From contig NZ_CP085442.1 in the NCBI RefSeq assembly GCF_023824195.1, positions 1,712,001 to 1,776,000 on the forward strand: 64,000 bases of DNA, given 5' to 3'. The stretch's first letter is position 1, and each line of letters begins with the position of its first letter. Below, piece after piece: positions 10,642 through 31,270 of the stretch. This DNA is from Priestia megaterium (lineage in GTDB: Bacteria; Bacillota; Bacilli; Bacillales; Bacillaceae_H). A program made the translations under genes and the position numbers. Below the pieces are notes generated by a model, which did not search any database, had not been told where the DNA came from, and was given only the letters and a program-made list of their open reading frames with translations.

Positions 10642-10833
10642 GTAAGAGTATATATAAAATACTTTAGCAATTACTTATCAAATGATAGAAATTAGGGGAA
10701 AGGTAGGTTTTTATATAAGTAGAATCGATTACAATCTGCATCTTTAAATTTGTATGTATATGAATCTACAAATCTGGTTAGACTGATAACGTAATATTCC
10801 TAGTTACTATAAAACAGATTTTGGGAAGAAATA

Positions 10834-18836: not shown

Positions 18837-18865
18837 GGGATTAAAGTTCCTAGCTTTCTTGAGTT
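18821..18865 (+). terminator. Terminator-like hairpin overlapping the RsbR-like stop
   Basis: Perfect 17-bp stem AACTCAAGAAAGCTAGG / CCTAGCTTTCTTGAGTT with 11-nt loop. It starts inside the coding region and has no T-run. Confidence 0.6.
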
Positions 18866-18986
18866 AAGTTGATTTAAGATATATATCATATAAGAGATTA
18901 GTTACCATAATGTAAATTATCAGAGATCATGTGTCAATATGTGTCGAAGGGGTAATGTAAAAGATATAACATCAGGAGGGGAGGAG

Positions 18987-19106
18987 ATGCTCGATAACTA
19001 TGAACGTTTCCTATTGTATAGGGAAATTAAATGTTTAATTGCGGATTATGATAAGTGTAGGCATCTACCTACTAAGAACGAGTTATACAATCAGATAGTA
19101 TTTTAA
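18987..19106 (+). CDS. Possible 39-residue protein
   Basis: Short ORF with a very strong ribosome site (GGAGGGGAGGAG) and ATG 18987. It encodes MLDNYERFLLYREIKCLIAD, then YDKCRHLPTKNELYNQ. The product is charged and helical. The strong start signal is the main support; no family is recognised. Confidence 0.4.
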   Translation: MLDNYERFLLYREIKCLIADYDKCRHLPTKNELYNQIVF

Positions 19107-19157
19107 AAAAAAGTACTTAAATATGGATATGAAAAGAGAATATCTAGATAGTAGAAG

Positions 19158-19322
19158 TTATATATTTGTCGAGAAAAACAATTGATCTTTAAATAATGCT
19201 CTCAAATCATGATCAAATACAAGTCCTTGCATTAGTTTTGATTTCGCTAAGCAAAGAGTTTTAAAATTAATAACTTCATGTAGATCCAATGACTCATGAT
19301 CGGCTAATTTTTGAATATCCAT
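19158..19322 (-). CDS. CotF-like small spore protein, probably C-truncated
   Basis: A 54-residue ORF from ATG 19322 behind AAGGAGGG. It reads DHESLDLHEVINFKTLCLAK and then SKLMQGLVFDHDLRALF, which resembles the start of small CotF-related spore coat proteins of Bacillus. After this segment the sequence turns unrelated (KDQLFFSTNI), so the C-terminal part may have been lost. Such proteins are usually made in the mother cell and incorporated into the coat. Confidence 0.5.
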   Translation of the reverse strand: MDIQKLADHESLDLHEVINFKTLCLAKSKLMQGLVFDHDLRALFKDQLFFSTNI

Positions 19323-19546
19323 TTCTGATTACCCTCCTTTTTACGTAAATACAATGTTATTGTTCCGAATATAGGAGGAAACATTCTATAATGTTTTTTA
19401 TAGGTGAATTATATTAAGCAGTTGTAATATCTATATAATTCGGAAAATTCATTTATTTGTGATAGCTGAGGCTGACCGCTGCGATGGCCTTTTTTCTTGT
19501 TAGCTAACTGTTAGTTGAACAAGAACTCTTTTGATTTAAATTTGGT

Positions 19547-19852
19547 ATGGCAGAAGGTTAGGCTAAAAAGTATCAAGGGGAATAGTGGGAGGTAAAAAGT
19601 GCTGAACTTGAAGCTCATGCTTTAAATCCTAATGCCGTAAAAACAATGAAAGAAGTAGGAATCGATATCTCAAACCAAACATCTGATGTAATAAATCCTG
19701 AAATTCTTAATAATGCTGCTTTAGTTGTGACACTATGCGAACACGCAGTAGAGCTTTGATCTGTAACTCCTCTACATGTGAAACGAGTTCACTGGGGCTT
19801 TCATGACCCGTCAAAAGCAGAAGGAACAGATGAAGAAAAATGGCATTCATAA
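19547..19852 (+). pseudogene. Decayed arsenate reductase gene
   Basis: An uninterrupted reading frame of 102 codons aligns with ArsC from MAEG onward ([57 protein letters not shown]). It carries three in-frame stops at 19559, 19583 and 19757. The P-loop with Cys10 is missing or scrambled, and the Cys90 position is lost near the third stop. It is most similar to the intact arsC at 10869, pointing to duplication followed by decay. Confidence 0.85.
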
Positions 19853-20037
19853 TTCGATGCTTTTATGTAACGCTCCATAGAAGGATTAACCACATAAATA
19901 TCTTTCCTTTTAAGAATGTCAAAAAGACGACTCCCTGTTTTGATCCCTTCCTTCTTTAATAAAGGCGTGGCAGCCCCATGGGTAAGTATTGTTAGACTAA
20001 TCAATATAGTGAAGCTTATAATAAGAAAAGTATAATT

Positions 20038-20052
20038 TGTAAAGCGATTACA
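20038..20052. promoter_or_regulatory. LacI-operator-like site upstream of the hybrid kinase
   Basis: TGTAAAGCGATTACA resembles TGTAATCGATTACA with altered, one-base-longer centre. It lies 125 bp before the kinase start. Weak on its own, but consistent with the series at 23990-25288. Confidence 0.35.
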
Positions 20053-20176
20053 ATAATCATTAGAAATGAATAATCGTTTTCAAATTAATCTTCAAGCACT
20101 GTAAAGAACGTAAAGTAAGGGATTTCATCATATAGAATCCATATTATATTTTTTTAACTAACTAGGGGCGAAACAA

Positions 20177-23164
20177 ATGAAGGATTCCAGATATATTTCA
20201 CAACCAGGCTTTACTGATACTGGGATGATTTTTAAGTTTGTACAAAAAAGTAACGAGTTTATTCATACTTTTGCCGAGGGAGAATTACTGTATAGATTGG
20301 GGTTTAATCGAGAGGATGTCGTCGGAAAGACGCTTCATGATTTTTATTGGGATGATATTGACACTGCCGATTTACTAAACGGTTATTACAAAAAAGCATG
20401 GGAAGGACAGTACATTGAATATGAAGGTGAATTTAGAGGTATCTATTATGTAATTTATTTAAGACCTTTATTTTATAAGGATAAAGTAGCTGAAGTAGTC
20501 GGAACTTGTGTGGACATTACTAACAAAAAGATTATGGAAGAGGACATTCTTCAAAAAGAACAAGAACGAAAATTAATGAATTCCTATGCATTCCAGCGTA
20601 GTTTGATTGATCGGTTAGAAAGTGGAATTGCAGTAACAGATTGTAATAAAAAAATAAGGCTCTTAAATAAGAAATTTTATGAGCTTTTCCAGTTGAAGGG
20701 GGAAATTGATTGCCATATTGGGATGCATGCGCCGGATTTACATTATCTTTTTGATAAGGAAATCAATAAAAATAAGATCAAAAATACAGAAAAACGAACG
20801 AGAACTACGAAAGAAATTAAAATAGATACAGGTATGACACTACGCTACAATTGTTTTCCTTTTAATGGGGAAAATGATTTTGTAGGCTACTTGTGGGAGT
20901 TTGAGGATATTACAGAACGAAAAAAAATGGAAAGAGTCATTATTCAGGAAAAAGAAGAAGCTGAAAAAGTGAACATGGCCAAATCAAGTTTTTTGTCTAA
21001 GATGAGTCATGAACTGCGTACGCCGCTGAATGGAATTCTGGGTTTTGCTCAGCTATTGGAGATGGATGAATCTTTAAATGAAGAACAGCGTGATTTTGTA
21101 CAGGAGATTTTAAATGGAGGAAGCCATTTATTAAGTTTAATTAATGATATTTTAGACGTGTCAAGAATAGAAACAGGAAATTTAAAAATTTCTATAGAGG
21201 AAGTTCATCTTCTAACTGTCATTAAGGAATGTATCAATATTGTACAACCATTGGCTAAGAAGAAGAATATCAGCATTTATAGTCAACTGGATCAATGGGA
21301 AAGTATGATAGTTCTTGCTGATCCTATACGTCTTAAACAAATATTGCTGAACCTACTTGATAATGCTATTAAATACAATCAAGAAAATGGAAAAGTCATC
21401 GTTTTCTGTCGTTTACAAGAGAATAAGCAGTACATTCATATCGTAGATACAGGTGTGGGTTTTTCTATAGAAGAATATACTAAAGTGTTTGTTCCATTTT
21501 ATCGAATTGAAAGTACAAAAGAAGAAGGTACAGGCATTGGATTGTCTTTAGTTAAACAGCTCGTGCATCTAATGGGGGGGGAGATTAATGTAACAAGCAA
21601 TAAAGGAACAGGAAGTGAGTTTTGCTTTAGCCTTCCTCTTCCAAATGATTTAAAGACTGTCATACAATGGGGGGAACAAACTGAATTTCCTTCAACAAAT
21701 AATAGTAAGGAAGATAACTATCGTTTGCTATATATTGAAGATAACGAATCCAACTTGCACTTAGTAAGTAACATCATTAAATCGCAGCCTTCCTATACGC
21801 TCTTATCAGCCCGCACAGGAAAAGAAGGAATAGAAATTGTAGCAAACGAAAAAATAGATTTGGTTCTTCTTGATATTAACCTCCCGGATATTAGCGGATA
21901 TGAAGTATTTGAAATTTTAAAAGCAGGCAAAGAAACGAAAGATATTGCTGTCATCGCTGTAAGTGCAAATGCAATGCCACAGGATATTCAATATACATTG
22001 GATAAAGGATTTGATAACTATTTAACAAAGCCCATTCATGTACAAGAGTTTTTGACAATCCTAAGTGAAACGCTAAACAATACAATTAATCAAAATATTC
22101 CAGATCATAAAATTTTAAGTACAGGACCACATGGAGAGGAAGCTGTCTCAGCAAAAACACTTCGGTTATCTTTGGAAGAGCTAAAAAAGATTAAGAAAAA
22201 GAAATATAAGGCTGCTATTGCCATGCATTATACTGGAAGTGATTGGTCAAGGTCTCAATTGGAAGGAATGCAAACTACTTTTGAGAAAATGGGCATTGAG
22301 GTAGTAGCTGTGACAAATGCAGAATTTAAATGGAAAAAGCAAGTAGCCGACATTGAAAGCATTTTAGCCCAAAATCCGGATATCCTGGTGAGCATTCCAG
22401 TTGATCCAGAATTGACTGCAAGCGTATATCAAAAAGCGGCCCAAGCTGGTGTGAAGCTGGTGTTTATGGACAATACACCGAATGGTTTGCAGTATGGGAA
22501 GGATTATGTAAGTATTGTTTCTGCTGACAATTATGGAAATGGCATTGAATCGGCCAATATCATGGCTGAGAAATTAGGTGGAAAAGGTAAGGTTGGGATT
22601 ATCTATCATGATGCTGATTTTTTTGCAACCAAACAAAGAACGGAAGCATTTGAAAAAACTATAAAGGAAAAGTACCCTGACATTCAAATTGTCGATCGCA
22701 GGGGGATTACTGATTCGAATGATGGAGAAAAAGTGGCATCCGCTATGATTGCTGAACATCGGGATTTAAATGGTATTTTTGTTGTATGGGATGTACCGGC
22801 TGAAGGAGCTTTGAGGGCAACTCGTACTGCAAGAAAAAGCAATTTAGTCATTACGACAATGGATTTGGGTATGAATGTCGCCTTGGAAATTGCACAGGAT
22901 GGACCTATTAAAGGACTAGGTGCCCAGCTACCATACCAGCAAGGAGTCGCCGAAGCGATTCTAGCAGGGTATGCCTTACTTGGAAAGCAAGCACCACCTT
23001 ATGTAGCCGTTCCGTCTCTAAAAGTAATGAAAGAAAATATAATTGATGCTTGGCAGCTCGTTTATCATGAGGATGCTCCAGATATTATTCAAAGTGTTGC
23101 GAAATCAAGAAACGCTAGGGAAAAGGGGGAACAACAAGATGAAAGTATTGATCGCAGACGATGA
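20177..23164 (+). CDS. Hybrid histidine kinase fused to a cytosolic sugar-binding-protein domain
   Basis: A 995-residue sensor without signal peptide or membrane segment. Order: PAS about 20-118, PAS about 141-250, HisKA with phospho-acceptor His278 (MSHELRTPLNG), HATPase with N-box Asn396, G1 DTGVGFS (424) and G2 GTGIGLS (451), then a receiver domain (Asp522, phospho-acceptor Asp566, Lys618). After a linker comes a complete periplasmic-binding-protein type 4 (RbsB-like) domain, about 677-965 (AAIAMHYTGSDWSRSQ, VSIPVDPELT, VSADNYGNG, GVAEAILAGYALLG). Solute-binding domains are normally outside the membrane; here it must be in the cytosol. It overlaps the LytTR regulator by 26 bp, so the two probably form one signalling pair sensing an imported sugar or cyclitol. 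Confidence 0.9.
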   Translation: MKDSRYISQPGFTDTGMIFKFVQKSNEFIHTFAEGELLYRLGFNREDVVGKTLHDFYWDDIDTADLLNGYYKKAWEGQYIEYEGEFRGIYYVIYLRPLFYKDKVAEVVGTCVDITNKKIMEEDILQKEQERKLMNSYAFQRSLIDRLESGIAVTDCNKKIRLLNKKFYELFQLKGEIDCHIGMHAPDLHYLFDKEINKNKIKNTEKRTRTTKEIKIDTGMTLRYNCFPFNGENDFVGYLWEFEDITERKKMERVIIQEKEEAEKVNMAKSSFLSKMSHELRTPLNGILGFAQLLEMDESLNEEQRDFVQEILNGGSHLLSLINDILDVSRIETGNLKISIEEVHLLTVIKECINIVQPLAKKKNISIYSQLDQWESMIVLADPIRLKQILLNLLDNAIKYNQENGKVIVFCRLQENKQYIHIVDTGVGFSIEEYTKVFVPFYRIESTKEEGTGIGLSLVKQLVHLMGGEINVTSNKGTGSEFCFSLPLPNDLKTVIQWGEQTEFPSTNNSKEDNYRLLYIEDNESNLHLVSNIIKSQPSYTLLSARTGKEGIEIVANEKIDLVLLDINLPDISGYEVFEILKAGKETKDIAVIAVSANAMPQDIQYTLDKGFDNYLTKPIHVQEFLTILSETLNNTINQNIPDHKILSTGPHGEEAVSAKTLRLSLEELKKIKKKKYKAAIAMHYTGSDWSRSQLEGMQTTFEKMGIEVVAVTNAEFKWKKQVADIESILAQNPDILVSIPVDPELTASVYQKAAQAGVKLVFMDNTPNGLQYGKDYVSIVSADNYGNGIESANIMAEKLGGKGKVGIIYHDADFFATKQRTEAFEKTIKEKYPDIQIVDRRGITDSNDGEKVASAMIAEHRDLNGIFVVWDVPAEGALRATRTARKSNLVITTMDLGMNVALEIAQDGPIKGLGAQLPYQQGVAEAILAGYALLGKQAPPYVAVPSLKVMKENIIDAWQLVYHEDAPDIIQSVAKSRNAREKGEQQDESIDRRR

Positions 23165-23849
23165 TGCTACCTCAAGAAAATTGTTAAGGTACTTTATTGG
23201 CAGTTTATCCAAATATAAAATTGTCGGAGAGGCCGCCAACGGTGAAGAATTGATACACTATGTTACGAAGGAAAAGCCGGATCTTGCTTTAGTAGATATC
23301 GGAATGCCTTTATTGAATGGAATGGAAGCGGTTAAAGCATGCAAAGAACTTTTCCCGCCTTTACAAGTTATTTTTATTACTGGCCATGATGATTATGCGC
23401 TTGAGGCATTTAACGTAAAGGCAGTGGACTATATTTTAAAGCCAATTGATAGAAATCGTTTATATGGTGCTTTAGAGAGGGTCTTACAAGCGTCTACTTC
23501 ACCAGTTGATAAAGAACATTCATTTAAAAAGGATTTAATGATTAAACAGCAGAAAAATATAATTTTTATTCCTTTAGAAGAAATTATCTTTATTGAAAGA
23601 CTTGATCGGAAATCTGTCATTCATACTAAAAATGGTAAATTCGAGACAAATGAAGCTTTAACTAGCTTAGAAGGTGCCGTTGATTCTAGGTTTATGGTAT
23701 CTCATAGATCTTATATTATAAATGTGGAACTTTTAACAAGAATCGAAGCAACGGGTCAGATGTATAAAGCCTATTTTAAAGATTATAAGGAAAACGCAAG
23801 GATTTCCAAGCATAAAGTAGACAATTTGCAAAGGTACAAATTATTATAA
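23139..23849 (+). CDS. LytTR response regulator
   Basis: Response regulator of 236 residues. The start is ATG 23139, preceded by AAAAGGGGGA and lying inside the end of the kinase gene; an earlier in-frame start is unsupported. The receiver has Asp8/Asp9, phospho-acceptor Asp53 (LVDIGMP) and Lys101 (ILKPID). Residues about 131-232 are a LytTR DNA-binding domain (IIFIPLEEIIFIERLDRK, FMVSHRSYIINV). The 26-bp overlap indicates translational coupling with the kinase. Targets are probably the downstream sugar genes. Confidence 0.92.
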   Translation: MKVLIADDDATSRKLLRYFIGSLSKYKIVGEAANGEELIHYVTKEKPDLALVDIGMPLLNGMEAVKACKELFPPLQVIFITGHDDYALEAFNVKAVDYILKPIDRNRLYGALERVLQASTSPVDKEHSFKKDLMIKQQKNIIFIPLEEIIFIERLDRKSVIHTKNGKFETNEALTSLEGAVDSRFMVSHRSYIINVELLTRIEATGQMYKAYFKDYKENARISKHKVDNLQRYKLL

Positions 23850-23989: not shown

Positions 23990-24003
23990 TGTATGCGATT
24001 ACA
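23990..24003. promoter_or_regulatory. LacI-type operator before the LacI gene
   Basis: TGTATGCGATTACA matches TGTAATCGATTACA at 12 of 14 positions, 41 bp upstream of the LacI ATG; suggests autoregulation. Confidence 0.5.
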
Positions 24004-24043: not shown

Positions 24044-25045
24044 ATGGTGCGAATAATAGATGTAGCAAAAAGGGCAAATGTTTCAACTGCTACAGTGTCA
24101 AGAGTACTAAGTAAACCTAACACTGTAACGGAAGAAACGACTGAGAAAGTATTACAAGTAATTAAAGAATTAAACTATCAGCCAAATGCATTAGCTCGCC
24201 AGTTAAGAACATTAGAAACCAACACCATTCTAGTCATTGTACCTGATATAACAAATCCTTTTTTTTCTAAGGTACTAAGAGGAATTGAGTCTGTAGCCGT
24301 AATAAACGGATATCAAGTTCTGCTTGGGGATACGGGCAATGATTTGGAAAGAGAAAATGGGTATTTAAACATACTTCTCCAAAAAAAAGCTGATGGAATG
24401 GTTTTACTAACGGCAAGAATGAAATCGAAGAACATTGAGGAAATGGCTCTCAAATATCCTGTAGTTTTGGCATGTGAATATATAGAAGGTTCAGCCATCC
24501 CCACCGTTTCTATTAATAATATCAGTGGGGCTCAAAAAGCAACAGAATATTTGGTTAAGCTGGGACATAAAAGAATAGGATTTATATCAGGTCCTCTAGG
24601 TGGAGTGATAGGACAGGATCGATTAAAAGGATTTTATCAGACAATGGCCCGATATAACCTTACAATTGAATCCGTTCTAGTGCAGGAGGGTAATTTCTCT
24701 TATGAAAGCGGTTTTAATATAATGAACCAATTTTTAGCTCTTAATCATCCTCCGACAGCCGTGTTTGCAGCCAATGATGAGATGGCATTTGGAGCTATAA
24801 ATGCTATTTCTTTAAAAGGATTAAGTGTTCCTCATGATATTTCCGTAGTAGGATTTGATGATATAAAATTTTCATCTATTTTCAAACCGGCTCTTACAAC
24901 CATCTCGCAGCCAGCTTTTGAGATAGGCACGATGGCAATGAAATTACTTATAAAGTTGATGAATAAGGAAGAAATTGAAAGACATCAATATCTGATGGAA
25001 GATCAACTTATCATACGTGATTCATGCTCAACACATACTTCATAA
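24044..25045 (+). CDS. LacI family repressor of the sugar operon
   Basis: LacI/GalR regulator of 333 residues, start ATG 24044 behind AGAGAG (an in-frame ATG 99 bp upstream would add unrelated residues). Helix-turn-helix IIDVAKRANVSTATVSRVL at residues 4-22, hinge LNYQPNALARQLR, then a periplasmic-binding-protein-like effector domain (DITNPFFSKVLRGIE, FAANDEMAFGA, VVGFDDIKF). It lies directly upstream of the isomerase/dehydrogenase genes. Two perfect and two near-perfect TGTAATCGATTACA dyads flank it, the classic palindrome type with a central CG bound by LacI members. Confidence 0.93.
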   Translation: MVRIIDVAKRANVSTATVSRVLSKPNTVTEETTEKVLQVIKELNYQPNALARQLRTLETNTILVIVPDITNPFFSKVLRGIESVAVINGYQVLLGDTGNDLERENGYLNILLQKKADGMVLLTARMKSKNIEEMALKYPVVLACEYIEGSAIPTVSINNISGAQKATEYLVKLGHKRIGFISGPLGGVIGQDRLKGFYQTMARYNLTIESVLVQEGNFSYESGFNIMNQFLALNHPPTAVFAANDEMAFGAINAISLKGLSVPHDISVVGFDDIKFSSIFKPALTTISQPAFEIGTMAMKLLIKLMNKEEIERHQYLMEDQLIIRDSCSTHTS

Positions 25046-25111: not shown

Positions 25112-25125
25112 TGTAATCGATTACA
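25112..25125. promoter_or_regulatory. LacI operator, perfect palindrome
   Basis: TGTAATCGATTACA, a perfect 14-bp palindrome between the LacI gene and the first catabolic gene. Confidence 0.75.
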
Positions 25126-25274: not shown

Positions 25275-25288
25275 TGTAATCGATTACA
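25275..25288. promoter_or_regulatory. LacI operator, perfect palindrome
   Basis: TGTAATCGATTACA again, 111 bp before the ATG of the isomerase gene. A strong AGGGAGGTGATG site with a five-codon ORF (25328-25350) follows and could be a leader. Confidence 0.75.
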
Positions 25289-25398: not shown

Positions 25399-26220
25399 AT
25401 GAAACTAGGATATCAAACAAATACGTGGGGCGGGGTAGTAGGGCACCCTGCCGGAGTCACTTCGATAAAAGATCTTTATTACCTTGCAAATGGATCAACA
25501 GAAGAAGCTTTAAAAGATATTGCAGAAGTTGGATATAAAGGGTTTGAAATGTTTGACGGAAATCTAATGGGATTTAAAGATAAAAAAGAAGAATTTAGAG
25601 CGTTGCTGAACCGTTATTCTTTAGACTTTATTGGAGTTTACACTGGAGGGAATTTTATTTTCCCGGATATTTTGGAAGAGGAATTATTAAAAATTGAAGA
25701 GGTTGCAGCTCTTGCTTCTGAACTAGGAGCGCAGCATCTAGTAATTGGCGGAGGAGCTATCCGTGCGAATGGTATTTTAGAAAGCGATTACGCTGATTTA
25801 GGCAATGCTCTTAATCGAGTAGTAGTAATTGCAGATAAATATAATCTTATTCCAAGCTATCACCCGCATTTAGGAACAAACGTAGAGGCCCCAGACCAGC
25901 TGGACAAATTAATGGCACTAACAACGATTAATCTATGTCCGGATACAGCGCATATCGAAGCAGGCGGAGGTAATCCGGTAGAAGTAATTAAAAAATATGC
26001 AGATCGCATTAAATACATTCATTTCAAAGATTATTATAATGGAGAATTTCTTCCTTTAGGAGAAGGACATCAAAAGTTTGACCAGATGATCCAAGTGCTG
26101 GATGGGATTGGGTATGATGAATGGCTTACAGTAGAATTAGACAGCTATAATGATCCGAAAAAAGGAGCAGAAATCAGCTTTAACTTCTTATTAAGTTTTG
26201 AAACGGCAAATAAGTCTTAA
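25399..26220 (+). CDS. Sugar phosphate isomerase/epimerase (xylose-isomerase-like TIM barrel)
   Basis: AP-endonuclease-family-2/xylose-isomerase-like TIM-barrel enzyme, 273 residues, of the group that includes IolE, IolI and sugar 3-epimerases. Likely metal and substrate residues lie in PSYHPHLGTN, LCPDTAHIEAGG, IHFKDYY and the final TVELDSY. Start ATG 25399 behind GGGGAG. It is the first gene after the LacI operators and precedes two Gfo/Idh/MocA dehydrogenases. A 2-keto-inositol dehydratase or keto-sugar isomerase role is likely; the exact substrate is not decidable here. Confidence 0.87.
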   Translation: MKLGYQTNTWGGVVGHPAGVTSIKDLYYLANGSTEEALKDIAEVGYKGFEMFDGNLMGFKDKKEEFRALLNRYSLDFIGVYTGGNFIFPDILEEELLKIEEVAALASELGAQHLVIGGGAIRANGILESDYADLGNALNRVVVIADKYNLIPSYHPHLGTNVEAPDQLDKLMALTTINLCPDTAHIEAGGGNPVEVIKKYADRIKYIHFKDYYNGEFLPLGEGHQKFDQMIQVLDGIGYDEWLTVELDSYNDPKKGAEISFNFLLSFETANKS

Positions 26221-26351: not shown

Positions 26352-27533
26352 ATGAAAAAGTTAAACGTAGGTATGATTGGCGGAGGATTTATGGGGAAGG
26401 CGCATGCACTTGCTTATGCAGGTATGCCAATGTTTTTTTGGCCGGCACCAGCAATTCCTCATCGACACACAGTCGTTGATGTGACCGAAGAGTTAGCAAA
26501 AGATGCAGCGGAACGTTTAGGATTTGAAAACTATTCATCTGATTGGAGAAAGGTAGTAGAAGATCCTGAAATTGATATTATTGATATTGTAACACCAAAT
26601 GACTCTCATGCAGAGATTGCCATCGCAGCTGCCAAAGCAGGTAAACATATCATTTCAGAAAAACCGTTAGCACGAACTGCAGCAGAAGCAAAAACAATGC
26701 TTGACGCAGTAAAAGAAGCAGGTGTTAAACATATGGTGGCATTTAACTATCGCAGAACACCAGCCGTTGCTCTAGCAAAAAAATATATTGAAGAAGGAAG
26801 AATTGGAAAAATTTTAAACTTCCGAGGTACGTACCTGCAAGACTGGTCTGCGGATCCTAACTCACCTTTATCATGGCGCTTCCAAAAAGAACGAGCTGGT
26901 TCAGGTGCATTAGGTGATATCGGAACACATGTGATCGACTATGCAAGATATCTTGTGGGTGACATTTCAGAGGTAATGGCTGTTGCAAAGACATGGATTG
27001 GTGAAAGACCGATTCAAAGTGGCGGTGTAGATAAACTAGGAACAGTAAAAGCAGAAGCTGATGTACCAAAGGGTAAAGTTGATGTAGACGATGAGTTTTC
27101 AACTTTAATTAAATTTGATAACGGCGCAGTAGGAAGTATTGAAGCGACTCGTAATGCCTGGGGTCGCAACAACTTCTTAACATTTGAAATTCACGGAGAG
27201 AAAGGTTCATTATACTTTAACTATGAACGCCGTGATGAGCTTCAAGTATGTTTCTCTGATGATCCAAGTGATAGCCGCGGATTCAGAACGGTTTATACAG
27301 GACCTGCACATCCATATGGAGAAGGTCTATGGCCAATCCCAGCATTAGGGATTGGCTACGGGGAAACAAAAATTATTGAAACATATGATTTCCTCAAATC
27401 AATCGCTGAAGATACAAGCGTATCACCAGATTTTGAAGACGGTTATCAAATCGCTGTTATTTCAGATGCTATCCTTGAATCAGCTGAAAAAGGTGTATGG
27501 GTTAATCTTACAGAAAATTTAGTGAAAGCTTAA
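26352..27533 (+). CDS. Gfo/Idh/MocA family dehydrogenase 1
   Basis: NAD(P)-dependent sugar or cyclitol dehydrogenase, 393 residues. Rossmann motif GGGFMG (10-15), catalytic-region EKP (103-105, Lys104), GDIGTHVIDYARYL with the active-site Asp/His segment. An insertion around residues 215-245 (QSGGVDKLGTV, ADVPKGKVDVDDE) is also found in the paralogue at 27717. Start ATG 26352 behind AGGAGGAG. It belongs to the LacI-controlled operon. Substrates in this family range from inositols to glycosides oxidised at C3. Confidence 0.9.
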   Translation: MKKLNVGMIGGGFMGKAHALAYAGMPMFFWPAPAIPHRHTVVDVTEELAKDAAERLGFENYSSDWRKVVEDPEIDIIDIVTPNDSHAEIAIAAAKAGKHIISEKPLARTAAEAKTMLDAVKEAGVKHMVAFNYRRTPAVALAKKYIEEGRIGKILNFRGTYLQDWSADPNSPLSWRFQKERAGSGALGDIGTHVIDYARYLVGDISEVMAVAKTWIGERPIQSGGVDKLGTVKAEADVPKGKVDVDDEFSTLIKFDNGAVGSIEATRNAWGRNNFLTFEIHGEKGSLYFNYERRDELQVCFSDDPSDSRGFRTVYTGPAHPYGEGLWPIPALGIGYGETKIIETYDFLKSIAEDTSVSPDFEDGYQIAVISDAILESAEKGVWVNLTENLVKA

Positions 27534-27716
27534 ATAATAGTTTAGTAGTGGCTAGTCCTAGTAGACTAGCCTTTATTAGAAATAGAGTTGTTGATTTGTG
27601 ATTCGGATCAATAAAGACAAGTCAACAAACAGCTATAAAGGTTTTAATTCTCTTTTTAGCTACTACGTAAACAACAGAAATTATAGAAAATACAGTTTAT
27701 TAAGGTGGAGAAAGAA

Positions 27717-28895
27717 ATGGAAAAAATAAAAGTTGGAGTTATTGGGACAGGGTTTATTGGACCTACTCATATTGAGGCTATCAGAAGACTTGGTTTTGTA
27801 GAAGTAGTTGGATTAGCAGAACATGGTCAAGAAGTAGCGGAACAAAAAGCGGTTGAACTTGGAATTCCGAAAGCTTATGGGGATTATCGTGACATGTTAA
27901 AAGACAGTGATATTCAAGTTGTTCATAACTGTACACCTAATCACCTTCACTTTCAAATTAATAAAGAGATTATTCAAGCAGGCAAACATGTGTTATCGGA
28001 GAAACCATTAGCTATGTCTAGTGAAGAGTCGGCCGAGCTATTGAAATTAGCTAAAGAGCACCAGGTCGTACATGGCGTAAACTTTAACTACCGACAATTT
28101 CCGATTGTAAAACAATTAGAAACGATGATCAAAAACGGTGAGTTAGGGAAAGTCAACTTAGTGCACGGAAGTTATTTACAAGACTGGTTATTGTTCGAAA
28201 CAGACTTTAATTGGCGTTTAGCTCCCGAAGTCGGAGGGAAATCACGAGCGGTAGCGGATATCGGTTCTCATTGGTGTGATACAGTTCAATATGTAACAGG
28301 TAAAAAAATTGTCGAAGTTTTTGCTGATCTAGCAACTGTTATACCAGTAAGAAAAAAATCTACTTCTCAAGGATCTACTTTTGGGGGACAAAAAGGACAA
28401 GAAGAAGCATATGAAGATGTTCCGATTAACACAGAAGACTATGCATCTGTTCTTGTACGTTTTGAAGACGGGGTAAAAGGCTTATTTACTGTGTCTCAAG
28501 TAAGTGCAGGGCGAAAAAATAGGCTAAGTTTCGAAATCGCTTGCAGTCAAAATTCTGCTTTTTGGAATCAAGAAGAACCAGAAAAGCTCTGGATCGGCTA
28601 TCGAGATCAACCAAATCAAACTCTTCTTGCAGATCCTGCTTTATTTAATCCTGAAGCAAAATCGTCCATTCATCATCCGGGGGGCCATAATGAAGGCTGG
28701 CCAGATGCATTAAAAAATGGATTGTTGAATTTCTATACCTTTATTCGAGAAGGTAAAAATCCTTTAAGTGATAAAGCCACTTTCGCGACATTTAAAGATG
28801 GACATATGTCCATGTGCATTACCGACGCCATTTTAGCAAGTCATGAACAACAAAAATGGATGAAAGTGAAGGTAAAGCAGGAGGTACGTGCATGA
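27717..28895 (+). CDS. Gfo/Idh/MocA family dehydrogenase 2
   Basis: Second oxidoreductase of the same family, 392 residues, start ATG 27717 behind AAGGTGGAG (the GTG at 27705 is inside the ribosome site). GTGFIG at 10-15, EKP at 96-98, and a shared YLQDW motif in the same place as in dehydrogenase 1. Its stop overlaps the next start as ATGA, so it is translationally coupled to the TIM-barrel gene. Dehydrogenase/isomerase pairs of this sort occur in 3-keto-glycoside (YcjS/YcjR) and cyclitol pathways. Confidence 0.9.
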   Translation: MEKIKVGVIGTGFIGPTHIEAIRRLGFVEVVGLAEHGQEVAEQKAVELGIPKAYGDYRDMLKDSDIQVVHNCTPNHLHFQINKEIIQAGKHVLSEKPLAMSSEESAELLKLAKEHQVVHGVNFNYRQFPIVKQLETMIKNGELGKVNLVHGSYLQDWLLFETDFNWRLAPEVGGKSRAVADIGSHWCDTVQYVTGKKIVEVFADLATVIPVRKKSTSQGSTFGGQKGQEEAYEDVPINTEDYASVLVRFEDGVKGLFTVSQVSAGRKNRLSFEIACSQNSAFWNQEEPEKLWIGYRDQPNQTLLADPALFNPEAKSSIHHPGGHNEGWPDALKNGLLNFYTFIREGKNPLSDKATFATFKDGHMSMCITDAILASHEQQKWMKVKVKQEVRA

Positions 28896-29863
28896 AATTA
28901 GGTGTGTTTACAGTTCTTTATCAAAACTTGCCTTTTGAAGAGATGCTGGACAAACTATGTGAAATGGGTGTAGAGGCCGTTGAATTGGGCACAGGCAATT
29001 ATCCAGGAAACAGTCATTGCAATCCGGATGAATTACTAGAGAACCCGGAAAAATTAAAAACATTTCAAGTTGCCCTTACAAGTAGAGGACTTACAATAAG
29101 TAGTCTAAGTTGTCATGGCAATTTACTGCACCCAAATAAGATGGTTGCCAAAAAGGCTCATGATGTGTGGAGAAAAACAGTTTTATTAGCTGAACGTTTA
29201 GAAGTGCCGGTGATTAATGGATTTTCTGGGTGCCCAGGTGACCACCCAGGTGCCAAAAATCCGAACTGGGTAACCTGTTCTTGGCCGCCGGAATATACGG
29301 AAATCCTAGATTGGCAATGGAATGAAGTAGTCATTCCTTACTGGAAAGAGGAAGTGAAATTTGCAGAGTCACACGGTATCCATCAAATTGCGCTTGAAAT
29401 GCACCCGGGTTTTGTTGTGTATAACCCTGAAACTCTCTTGAAATTAAGAGAACATGCTGGGCCAAGTATTGGAGCTAATTTTGATCCAAGCCATTTAATT
29501 TGGCAAGGGATCAATCCAGTAGAAGCCATTAAAAAACTTGGTCGAGAAGAGGCTATCTTTCATTTTCATGCCAAAGATACGTATTTGGATCAGGCAAATA
29601 TTAGTGTTAATGGAGTATTAGATACAAAACATTACAGTGATACTTTGAATCGTTCATGGACATTTAGATCAGTAGGATATGGTCAAAATGAAAAAATATG
29701 GAAAGATATGGTGAGTGCGCTTCGTGCGGTAGGATATGATTATGTGATATCCATTGAACATGAAGATATGCTAGCTTCGTTAGATGAAGGATTAAGTAAG
29801 GCCATCTCTTTATTAAAAGGCGCACAATTTAAAGAACAATTAACTGAAATGTGGTGGGCGTAA
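28892..29863 (+). CDS. Sugar phosphate isomerase/epimerase 2 (YcjR-like)
   Basis: Xylose-isomerase-like TIM barrel of 323 residues, start ATG 28892 behind AGGAGG, coupled to the preceding gene by an ATGA overlap. Likely metal ligands are in ALEMHPGF, ANFDPSHLIW, FHFHAKDT and SIEHED. The NPDELLENPEKL and SCSWPPEY segments set it apart from the gene at 25399. Its length and pairing with a Gfo/Idh/MocA enzyme recall YcjR, a keto-sugar epimerase, but the assignment is by context. Confidence 0.86.
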   Translation: MKLGVFTVLYQNLPFEEMLDKLCEMGVEAVELGTGNYPGNSHCNPDELLENPEKLKTFQVALTSRGLTISSLSCHGNLLHPNKMVAKKAHDVWRKTVLLAERLEVPVINGFSGCPGDHPGAKNPNWVTCSWPPEYTEILDWQWNEVVIPYWKEEVKFAESHGIHQIALEMHPGFVVYNPETLLKLREHAGPSIGANFDPSHLIWQGINPVEAIKKLGREEAIFHFHAKDTYLDQANISVNGVLDTKHYSDTLNRSWTFRSVGYGQNEKIWKDMVSALRAVGYDYVISIEHEDMLASLDEGLSKAISLLKGAQFKEQLTEMWWA

Positions 29864-29918: not shown

Positions 29919-29992
29919 ACATTGAAGAGAACCATCTAATGAGTAAATGTGACTATCAGCATTGTTAAATATATAATTTTGAGGTGATTAAA

Positions 29993-31270
29993 ATGAATGC
30001 GATTTCAAAAAGAGAGCAAAACACCAAAGGTCTTCCATCAGCTATGATTTGGGGCTATATCGCAACTCTAATTTTTATGGTAGGAGATGGTCTCGAACAT
30101 GGTTGGCTTTCACCGTATCTTATCGAACATGGCTTAACCGTTCAACAATCTTCTACTCTCTTTGCAGCATACGGAGCTATATTAGCAATCGCCTCCTACT
30201 TTTCGGGTGTCCTTACAGAAGCATGGGGACCGAGAAAGGTTATGATAGCAGGCTTGGTTATCTGGTTAGTTGGTCAAATTCTTTTTATTGAGTATGGTCT
30301 AAAACCGCATAATTATGCAGTTATGTTACCGACTTATGCTATTCGAGGATTTGGTTATCCTTTATTTTGCTATTCGTTTTTAGTTTGGGTTACGTATCGC
30401 AGTCCTGACCGTATTTTAGCTACGGCAATAGGGCTATTTTGGGCAGCATGGAGTGGCGGTCTTTATGTTGTTGGAAGTTATTTTCCAGCGTATATGATTC
30501 CGAAAATCGGATATATCGGATTAATGTGGAGTGCGGTCGTGTGGGTGTTAATCGGTGGATTAATTGGAGTTGTTGTTGTAAAAGGCCAAGTACATGAACG
30601 TGAGGGTAACGGCAAGGAAAAATTGAAAAGTTTACTCAGTGGACTAACTATTTGTATTGAAAATCCAAAAATCGCAATAGGAGGAGTTGTTCGTATAATA
30701 AACTCGACCGGCGTAGGTGCTCTTCCAATCTTTTTCCCTCTATACTTGTCCTCTGAATATGGATACAGTACAGAAGAATGGTTACAAGTATGGGGAACTA
30801 TGTGGGTGGCCAATATCTCTTTTAACTTAGTCATTCCCTATATCAGTGACAAATGGTTAGGTTGGCGAAAGACAATTATGTGGATTGGCAGTGTCGGTTG
30901 CGGTGTAATGACTCTGGTTATGCTTTATACTCCTCAAATGTTCGGGCATAATTTCTGGGCATTAACTGTGGTAGGCATATTTTTTGGAATCGTTCTATGT
31001 GGTTATGTACCACTCTCTGCTCTAGTAAGTTCATTAGCACCTGAAAAGAAAGGCTCAGCTATGGCTATTGTAAGTTTTGGGGCTGGAATGTCTTACTTTA
31101 TTGCACCTGCAATTGTGGGAACATTCATTGGTAGCATGGGTGTACACGGAGTCATGTGGATATTTGCTGGTTTGTATTTTGTTAGTGCTATTTTGATGGT
31201 ATTTATGAAATTACCAGGTGAAGAAAAACAAAACAAAAGCAGTTATTCATCTGAGAAACAAGTCGGTTGA
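29993..31270 (+). CDS. MFS transporter, ribitol/arabinitol-permease-like
   Basis: Twelve-segment major-facilitator transporter of 425 residues, start ATG 29993 behind GAGGTGAT. It aligns with the polyol permease group (RbtT/DalT): IWGYIATLIFMVGDGLEHGW, YAIRGFGYPLFCYSFLV, VRIINSTG, the EWLQVWGTMW segment and FGHNFWAL. It is the last gene of the LacI-controlled cluster, so the substrate is probably a polyol or cyclitol imported with protons and then handled by the two dehydrogenases and isomerases. Confidence 0.87.
   Translation: MNAISKREQNTKGLPSAMIWGYIATLIFMVGDGLEHGWLSPYLIEHGLTVQQSSTLFAAYGAILAIASYFSGVLTEAWGPRKVMIAGLVIWLVGQILFIEYGLKPHNYAVMLPTYAIRGFGYPLFCYSFLVWVTYRSPDRILATAIGLFWAAWSGGLYVVGSYFPAYMIPKIGYIGLMWSAVVWVLIGGLIGVVVVKGQVHEREGNGKEKLKSLLSGLTICIENPKIAIGGVVRIINSTGVGALPIFFPLYLSSEYGYSTEEWLQVWGTMWVANISFNLVIPYISDKWLGWRKTIMWIGSVGCGVMTLVMLYTPQMFGHNFWALTVVGIFFGIVLCGYVPLSALVSSLAPEKKGSAMAIVSFGAGMSYFIAPAIVGTFIGSMGVHGVMWIFAGLYFVSAILMVFMKLPGEEKQNKSSYSSEKQVG

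Follow-up and report, generated by a model that had tools for sequence, protein, structure and literature searches.

A soluble hybrid histidine kinase with a C-terminal sugar-receptor domain beside predicted levoglucosan genes in Priestia megaterium

Introduction

Sensors based on import receptors usually read the cell exterior. Hybrid kinases with periplasmic binding-protein (PBP) sensors are already known, and in the hybrid sensors of Bacteroides the PBP is N-terminal and lies outside the membrane. Within the cytosol, LacI/GalR repressors use the type I PBP fold to read sugar. Levoglucosan, with which the genes considered in this work are associated, is a sugar of wood burning and pyrolysis and a marker of biomass burning.

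For B. smithii, the published account gives a levoglucosan cluster of a LacI regulator, an ABC receptor, an ATPase and permeases together with lgdA, lgdB1, lgdB2, and lgdC, the products of these last four converting levoglucosan to glucose via 3-keto intermediates (PMC7676230). A second account reports MFS transporters in some levoglucosan clusters and names regulators of the LytTR and LacI types, as well as ABC transporters, among the neighbors of lgdA; the word “kinase” occurs in it twice, each time in levoglucosan kinase (PMC10066097).

Here we analyze a hybrid histidine kinase with a sugar-receptor domain behind its REC domain, encoded in a 64,000-nucleotide stretch of Priestia megaterium DNA (hereafter the window). 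The ABC receptors of described levoglucosan systems (gene c of B. smithii S-2701M and the Paenarthrobacter solute binding protein) are alike in gene neighborhood, and the kinase PBP belongs to the same subfamily as the stand-alone receptors of LgdA clusters, the proteins compared being those of relatives rather than those of B. smithii or Paenarthrobacter. Whereas the LgdA-cluster receptors are separate, lipoprotein-like secreted proteins, the kinase PBP is predicted to be cytosolic and forms one polypeptide with a kinase. Among Bacillaceae, PAS hybrid histidine kinases are similar in the kinase-REC part (mostly 50–58% identity among the best 120 of 7992 matches) but carry no binding domain behind REC. 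A Bacteroides hybrid two-component sensor listed as “sensor protein” (PDB 2x7x, which we take to be BT1754) shares the sugar-binding PBP fold (E 1.4e-9), but the PBP of the fused kinase is C-terminal and, as predicted, cytosolic, with no membrane segment, and thus differs from the Bacteroides type. Unlike LacI/GalR proteins, which bind DNA directly, the kinase carries a PBP that resembles transport receptors more closely than it does LacI proteins. Within open-access full texts, a scope outside which most subscription papers fall, we recognized no description of a soluble kinase whose REC is followed by a transport-type receptor.

Results

The kinase and its neighboring genes are summarized in Table 1. 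The domain order PAS-PAS-HisKA-HATPase-REC-PBP given in a preliminary description of this DNA was confirmed within one frame, with the second PAS being weak. By sequence the protein is a hybrid histidine kinase, since HisKA has its His, HATPase_c is present, and the REC C-terminal to them has its Asp. The binding domain is of the Peripla_BP_4 or RbsB type, and both profile search and structure model give a complete two-lobed type I PBP fold; the domain alone is predicted confidently, and the full-length model (pTM 0.46) leaves the arrangement of the domains unfixed. The linker stretch ILSTGPHGEEAVSAKTL resembles the N-terminal part of mature secreted receptors. Binding proteins of ABC importers have a signal peptide or lipobox, are secreted, and have a gene of their own, whereas this domain is fused behind REC, and no signal peptide, membrane helix or hydrophobic segment was found in the 995 residues. 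Because an export signal is absent, the domain must, on this prediction, sit in the cytosol, as had been proposed. Upstream of the kinase, 1.3 kb of the window (18837–20176) is without any frame of at least 90 aa, and the part at about 19600–19890 resembles an arsenate reductase gene and is presumably what is left of a broken copy.

Table 1. Features of the kinase gene and the genes downstream of it (window coordinates).
Feature	Position	Strand	Basis
Hybrid histidine kinase with C-terminal sugar-receptor domain	20177..23164	+	one open frame, 995 aa
First PAS domain (residues 40–115)	20294..20521	+	PAS_9 above cut-off
Second PAS-like region, weak (residues 139–252)	20591..20932	+	PAS_7, PAS_8 below cut-off
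HisKA (residues 268–334), phospho-acceptor H278	20978..21178	+	profile match and residue
HATPase_c (residues 382–489)	21320..21643	+	profile match
REC (residues 518–628), phospho-acceptor D566	21728..22060	+	profile match and residue
REC-to-PBP linker (residues 634–665), with ILSTGPHGEEAVSAKTL stretch	22076..22171	+	sequence comparison
Type I periplasmic-binding-protein domain (residues 666–963)	22172..23065	+	profile and model
LytTR response regulator (REC-LytTR), 236 aa from ATG	23139..23849	+	profile matches
Operator-like site before lacI, 2 mismatches	23990..24003	+	palindrome scan
LacI-family regulator	24044..25045	+	profile matches
Perfect palindrome TGTAATCGATTACA before lgdB1-like gene	25112..25125	+	palindrome scan
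Second perfect palindrome TGTAATCGATTACA before lgdB1-like gene	25275..25288	+	palindrome scan
LgdB1-like TIM-barrel protein (AP_endonuc_2)	25399..26220	+	family and gene order
Levoglucosan dehydrogenase LgdA	26352..27533	+	NF052479, 761 bits vs cut-off 650
LgdC-like Gfo/Idh/MocA oxidoreductase	27705..28895	+	family and gene order
LgdB2-like TIM-barrel protein (AP_endonuc_2)	28856..29863	+	family and gene order
RbtT/DalT/CsbX-family MFS transporter	29984..31270	+	TIGR00897, 511 bits vs cut-off 375

The likely ATG of the LytTR gene at 23139 overlaps the final 26 bases of the kinase gene, which suggests coupled synthesis and bears out the earlier statement that a LytTR regulator adjoins the kinase; the LacI-type regulator said to follow is likewise in place. 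Since the product of 26352–27533 passes the NCBIfam levoglucosan dehydrogenase cut-off, the predicted pathway of the cluster is levoglucosan catabolism. This replaces the polyol/cyclitol pathway first suggested, for which the scores of inositol 2-dehydrogenase (148 bits, cut-off 355) and IolE (108 bits, cut-off 290) both fall below the cut-off, as against the LgdA score of 761 bits. The LgdB1-, LgdB2-, and LgdC-like genes are of the right families and in the right order, with no enzyme-specific model above its cut-off. In the window cluster there is no ABC importer with a receptor, the MFS transporter standing at that place and ending the operon; the levoglucosan clusters of relatives have an ABC importer in the loci viewed.

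Besides the sites in Table 1, TGTAATCGATTACA occurs with two mismatches at 10720, giving 4 matches where 0.36 are expected, a number that none of 100 shuffles reaches. A degenerate form was found in 47 of 120 loci, a count made with no chance control and with overlapping loci counted twice. The palindrome fits a candidate LacI operator. Upstream of the kinase gene lies an imperfect palindrome, TTGTAAAGCGATTACAA (20037–20053), which has one base more than the operator-like sites it resembles and could place the kinase under LacI control. No LytTR target repeats were recognized in the three stretches examined. With regard to the phosphorelay, a profile search of the genome gave no Hpt match beside the kinase and a single weak one (25.1 bits, cut-off 24.6) in a 549-aa frame about 0.8 Mb away, so that a classical four-step relay through Hpt is unsupported.

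The fusion is shared by a family of proteins. With residues 640–995 as the query, 56 proteins (P0005–P0060) among the best 120 of 134 matches have HisKA, HATPase_c, REC, and PBP, and the PBP is the last domain in each of them, so the REC-PBP architecture recurs in the same domain order. When the kinase-REC part was the query, the top 55 among the best 120 of 7992 matches all carry the PBP (64–96% identity), the first PBP-less kinase appears at 58%, and P0053, a divergent fused kinase at 55%, ranks shortly after it. Because the top kinase-REC matches nearly all bear the PBP, the fusion appears to mark one kinase subfamily.

It could be argued that an assembly or frameshift error joined a kinase gene to a receptor gene, given that the clusters of relatives contain receptor genes too and that the fused protein is called a ribose transport substrate-binding protein in some databases. 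Independent genomes share the fusion, namely 9 of 397 sampled genomes and 20 of 32 named genomes, the latter a biased set reached via PBP matches, and this rules out the artefact to the point where we give it practically no weight; the error that the preliminary description had named as fatal to its proposal did not occur. Three of those 20 fusion rows count one TAA, and their loci show open 854-aa frames. The preliminary description had also asked whether homologues always carry the binding domain as a separate secreted protein: the homologues keep the fusion, while close relatives of the domain are also secreted alone. Of the 12 matching plasmid records, none covers more than 80% of the kinase fusion. 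Two hybrid kinases without Peripla_BP_4 (P0256 and P0282) are named “ribose transport system substrate-binding protein” by a source, a name that seems to have spread from fused proteins, and P0067, a metagenomic GAF-domain kinase in whose middle two pieces of the receptor domain stand out of order, looks like a chimeric assembly.

Linkage to the levoglucosan genes was measured in an order-wide sample of 397 genomes with up to four candidates scored per genome, a fusion being called where 452–454 of the 454 REC-PBP query residues were matched in a frame no shorter than 855 aa, and LgdA at E ≤ 1e-120. All nine fusion genomes, which span four family codes with four belonging to one genus, have LgdA on the same contig at a distance of 3.1–12.2 kb. 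LgdA itself is found in 27 of the 397 genomes, and since 18 of these are without the kinase fusion, the fusion would be dispensable for the pathway. Gene neighborhoods were viewed in 16 loci (the window, L120, L001/L119, L002/L118, L003, L006, L010, L013, L016, L020, L021, L022, L114, L115, L116, and L117), with only part of the kinase in view in L013 and L016. A LytTR gene stands beside the kinase, downstream or divergent, in 15 of them, the exception being B. taeanensis (L002/L118), where the fusion has no adjoining LytTR gene. At 14 of these loci the cluster contains a same-subfamily receptor, which is missing in the window genome (G000) and its congener G012. With all candidates scored, neither genome has another subfamily member at E ≤ 1e-80, which argues that the kinase PBP is not kept for transport there; at this threshold the window genome thus has no further close receptor. 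Its 24 Peripla_BP_4 matches include LacI-type proteins, and the match in L065 shows 19% identity. In L012, L013, L014, L016, L017, and L018, three different subfamily receptor genes are in view with one RbsA and one permease gene, and these clusters also include additional genes for TIM-barrel proteins and zinc alcohol dehydrogenases.

These counts bear on whether the levoglucosan genes are the target of the kinase at all. The kinase and LytTR protein might control something else, such as just the transporter or genes far away, leaving LacI to run the operon by itself, which would suit the two perfect palindromes before lgdB1, the lack of a recognized LytTR site in the three stretches, and the 18 LgdA genomes that manage without the fusion. 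Against this, the linkage of the fusion to LgdA is constant in the order-wide sample, and we judge control of other targets to be very unlikely.

The closest stand-alone relatives of the kinase PBP share 66–75% identity with it (best 120 of 4294 matches, P0122 and P0124 set aside). A lipobox-like motif lies within the first 45 residues of 113 of the 119 entries P0123–P0241, one of which (P0124) is a kinase fragment, and in only 1 of 57 kinases. On these comparisons the kinase PBP is a paralogue of the lipoprotein that serves as import receptor in the relatives' own levoglucosan clusters. In a PBP tree of 142 rows (thinned by similarity from 312), the kinase PBPs form two clades among the secreted receptors, A, which includes the window, and B. 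A constraint that kept all 45 kinase rows in one group apart from 44 receptors was rejected (log-likelihood 130 lower, AU p 1e-8), in a test whose group was picked after seeing the first tree and from which 45 ABC rows and eight further rows, including P0053, were excluded.

The kinase parts behave differently from the PBPs. Clade B has 68–81% identity to the window in the kinase core and 61–80% in REC vs. 57–62% in the PBP, while the clade A kinase cores (63–95%) span a range covering that of B. The kinase tree, for which 25 of 64 listed PBP-less kinases were taken and four of the 64 omitted by hand, leaves the kinase parts of A and B unseparated; the PBP-bearing kinases need 2 changes where 1 is forced, with one row misplaced, and form one group in only 8% of bootstrap trees, several rows including P0053 being long-branched. 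Scanned in 20-residue steps against P0001, P0019, and P0022 of clade A, the clade B kinase P0038 shows 70–95% identity at residues 401–560 and 45–80% at 601–840, where its identity to the secreted receptor of L012 is 60–95%, so that the similarity breaks at about residues 560–600. The simplest account is one fusion, after which recombination would have exchanged the ligand-binding region in clade B, with kinase, REC, and linker kept. Two independent origins of the whole fusion are not favored, as the kinase parts are not split by clade and the similarity in P0038 breaks at that point. No stand-alone receptor of the matching type was seen in the viewed stretches of L005, L007, L015, and L114–L116 (G401, G403, and G411), which carry clade B kinases.

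The ligand pocket was characterized at the positions aligned to RbsB R141, N190, D215, and Q235, which we take to be ligand residues. These are R, W, D, and Q in all 57 kinase domains, in all 8 receptors of the L012:10979 type, and in 60 of 60 fusions to the ABC ATPase RbsA (described below); in the other 172 stand-alone receptors they are found in 172, 172, 171, and 171, respectively. The predicted ligand positions are thus conserved, conservation being no proof of binding. At other positions D765 is replaced by E in 6 of 35 clade A kinases, W690 by F or Y in 22 of 22 clade B kinases and likewise in 8 of 8 L012:10979-type receptors, and N766 by S in 20 of 22 and 2 of 8, respectively. Residue 688 is S in the window and 13 of 35 clade A kinases, and N in 156 of the 172 stand-alone receptors.

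The substitutions at 690 and 766 mark a different receptor type in clade B, and several clusters carry up to three receptor genes per importer. Both would suit a domain that reads 3-keto-levoglucosan, 3-keto-glucose, glucose or another anhydrosugar or glucoside, and so reports flux or a wider substrate range, as would its sharing the cytosol with the site where the intermediates are produced, going by the pathway description (PMC7676230). We regard such a ligand as unlikely, although it deserves some weight, since the clade A domains cluster with LgdA-cluster receptors and retain the pocket positions. It is also conceivable that the PBP is a ligand-independent module for dimerization, stability or docking and that PAS senses the real signal, for the N-terminal PAS scores above the cut-off and the N-terminal parts vary among relatives. 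The pocket positions are, however, conserved, the PAS region varies while the PBP is kept in all 56 listed fusions (best 120 of 134 matches), and the binding region was apparently swapped for that of another receptor, not eroded; a purely structural role therefore seems quite improbable to us.

Members of the same subfamily are also found C-terminal on the ABC ATPase RbsA, in 60 proteins (P0061–P0066 and P0068–P0121, some of them fragments) among the best 120 of 134 matches. As in the kinase, the receptor is C-terminal and has no export signal (lipobox-like motif in 0 of 60), which would place it in the cytosol, but the partner is an importer ATPase rather than a kinase. These fusions occupy a separate part of the PBP tree, and the seven with a named source come from metagenome-assembled genomes of several phyla. 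A plasmid search, with 30 of 1844 records listed, gave matches in 2–3 pieces, ATPase and receptor genes being separate where annotated. For P0004, a secreted tandem receptor, and P0114, an RbsA-PBP fusion close to it in the tree, the longest contig is 25760 in both, which hints that they lie on one contig.

Discussion

We lean, with modest confidence, toward the reading in which this soluble hybrid kinase is a cytosolic reader of imported levoglucosan or a close anhydrosugar that drives the LytTR regulator via a captured C-terminal receptor domain. The polypeptide is intact and has no export signal, its pocket is conserved, its binding domain belongs to the subfamily of the pathway's receptors, and its gene is linked to lgdA and to a LytTR gene; from these computed results we infer ligand binding and ligand identity, signal direction, phosphotransfer to LytTR, and the target promoters. 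In the window genome and G012, levoglucosan would enter through the MFS transporter and bind the PBP domain in the cytosol. The two lobes of the domain would then close around the ligand, rearranging the neighboring REC and kinase and shifting the balance between kinase and phosphatase activity. Because the lone weak Hpt match lies so far off, our guess is that the LytTR protein may receive phosphate directly from the kinase, whose own REC would act as a brake or sink. The LytTR regulator would switch the genes for levoglucosan breakdown, and the LacI-type regulator, acting at operators of its own, would gate that operon as well; activator and repressor alike would then take their signal from the cytosol. 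Weighing against a levoglucosan sensor are S688 in the window, where most secreted receptors carry N, the 18 of 27 LgdA genomes without the fusion, and the B. taeanensis kinase without a LytTR neighbor, and the PAS domains may be the main sensors of the kinase.

If the RbsA-PBP fusions are real in living cells, receptors of this subfamily have entered the cytosol attached to two different types of protein. More tentatively, then, such receptors may have become cytosolic more than once as readers of imported sugar, on the kinase for expression and on the ATPase for transport feedback, with the kinase respecified through receptor-gene recombination in clade B; we hold this as a possibility somewhat short of even.

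The exchange between A and B would document a natural case of a kinase that replaced its sensor and kept its output, and control of a hybrid kinase by a domain placed behind REC becomes directly testable. The domain is possibly also a part for a cytosolic levoglucosan biosensor. For the organism, an orphan kinase gains a predicted ligand, and with the receptor in the cytosol the cell would respond, beside a LacI-type regulator, to sugar actually taken up.
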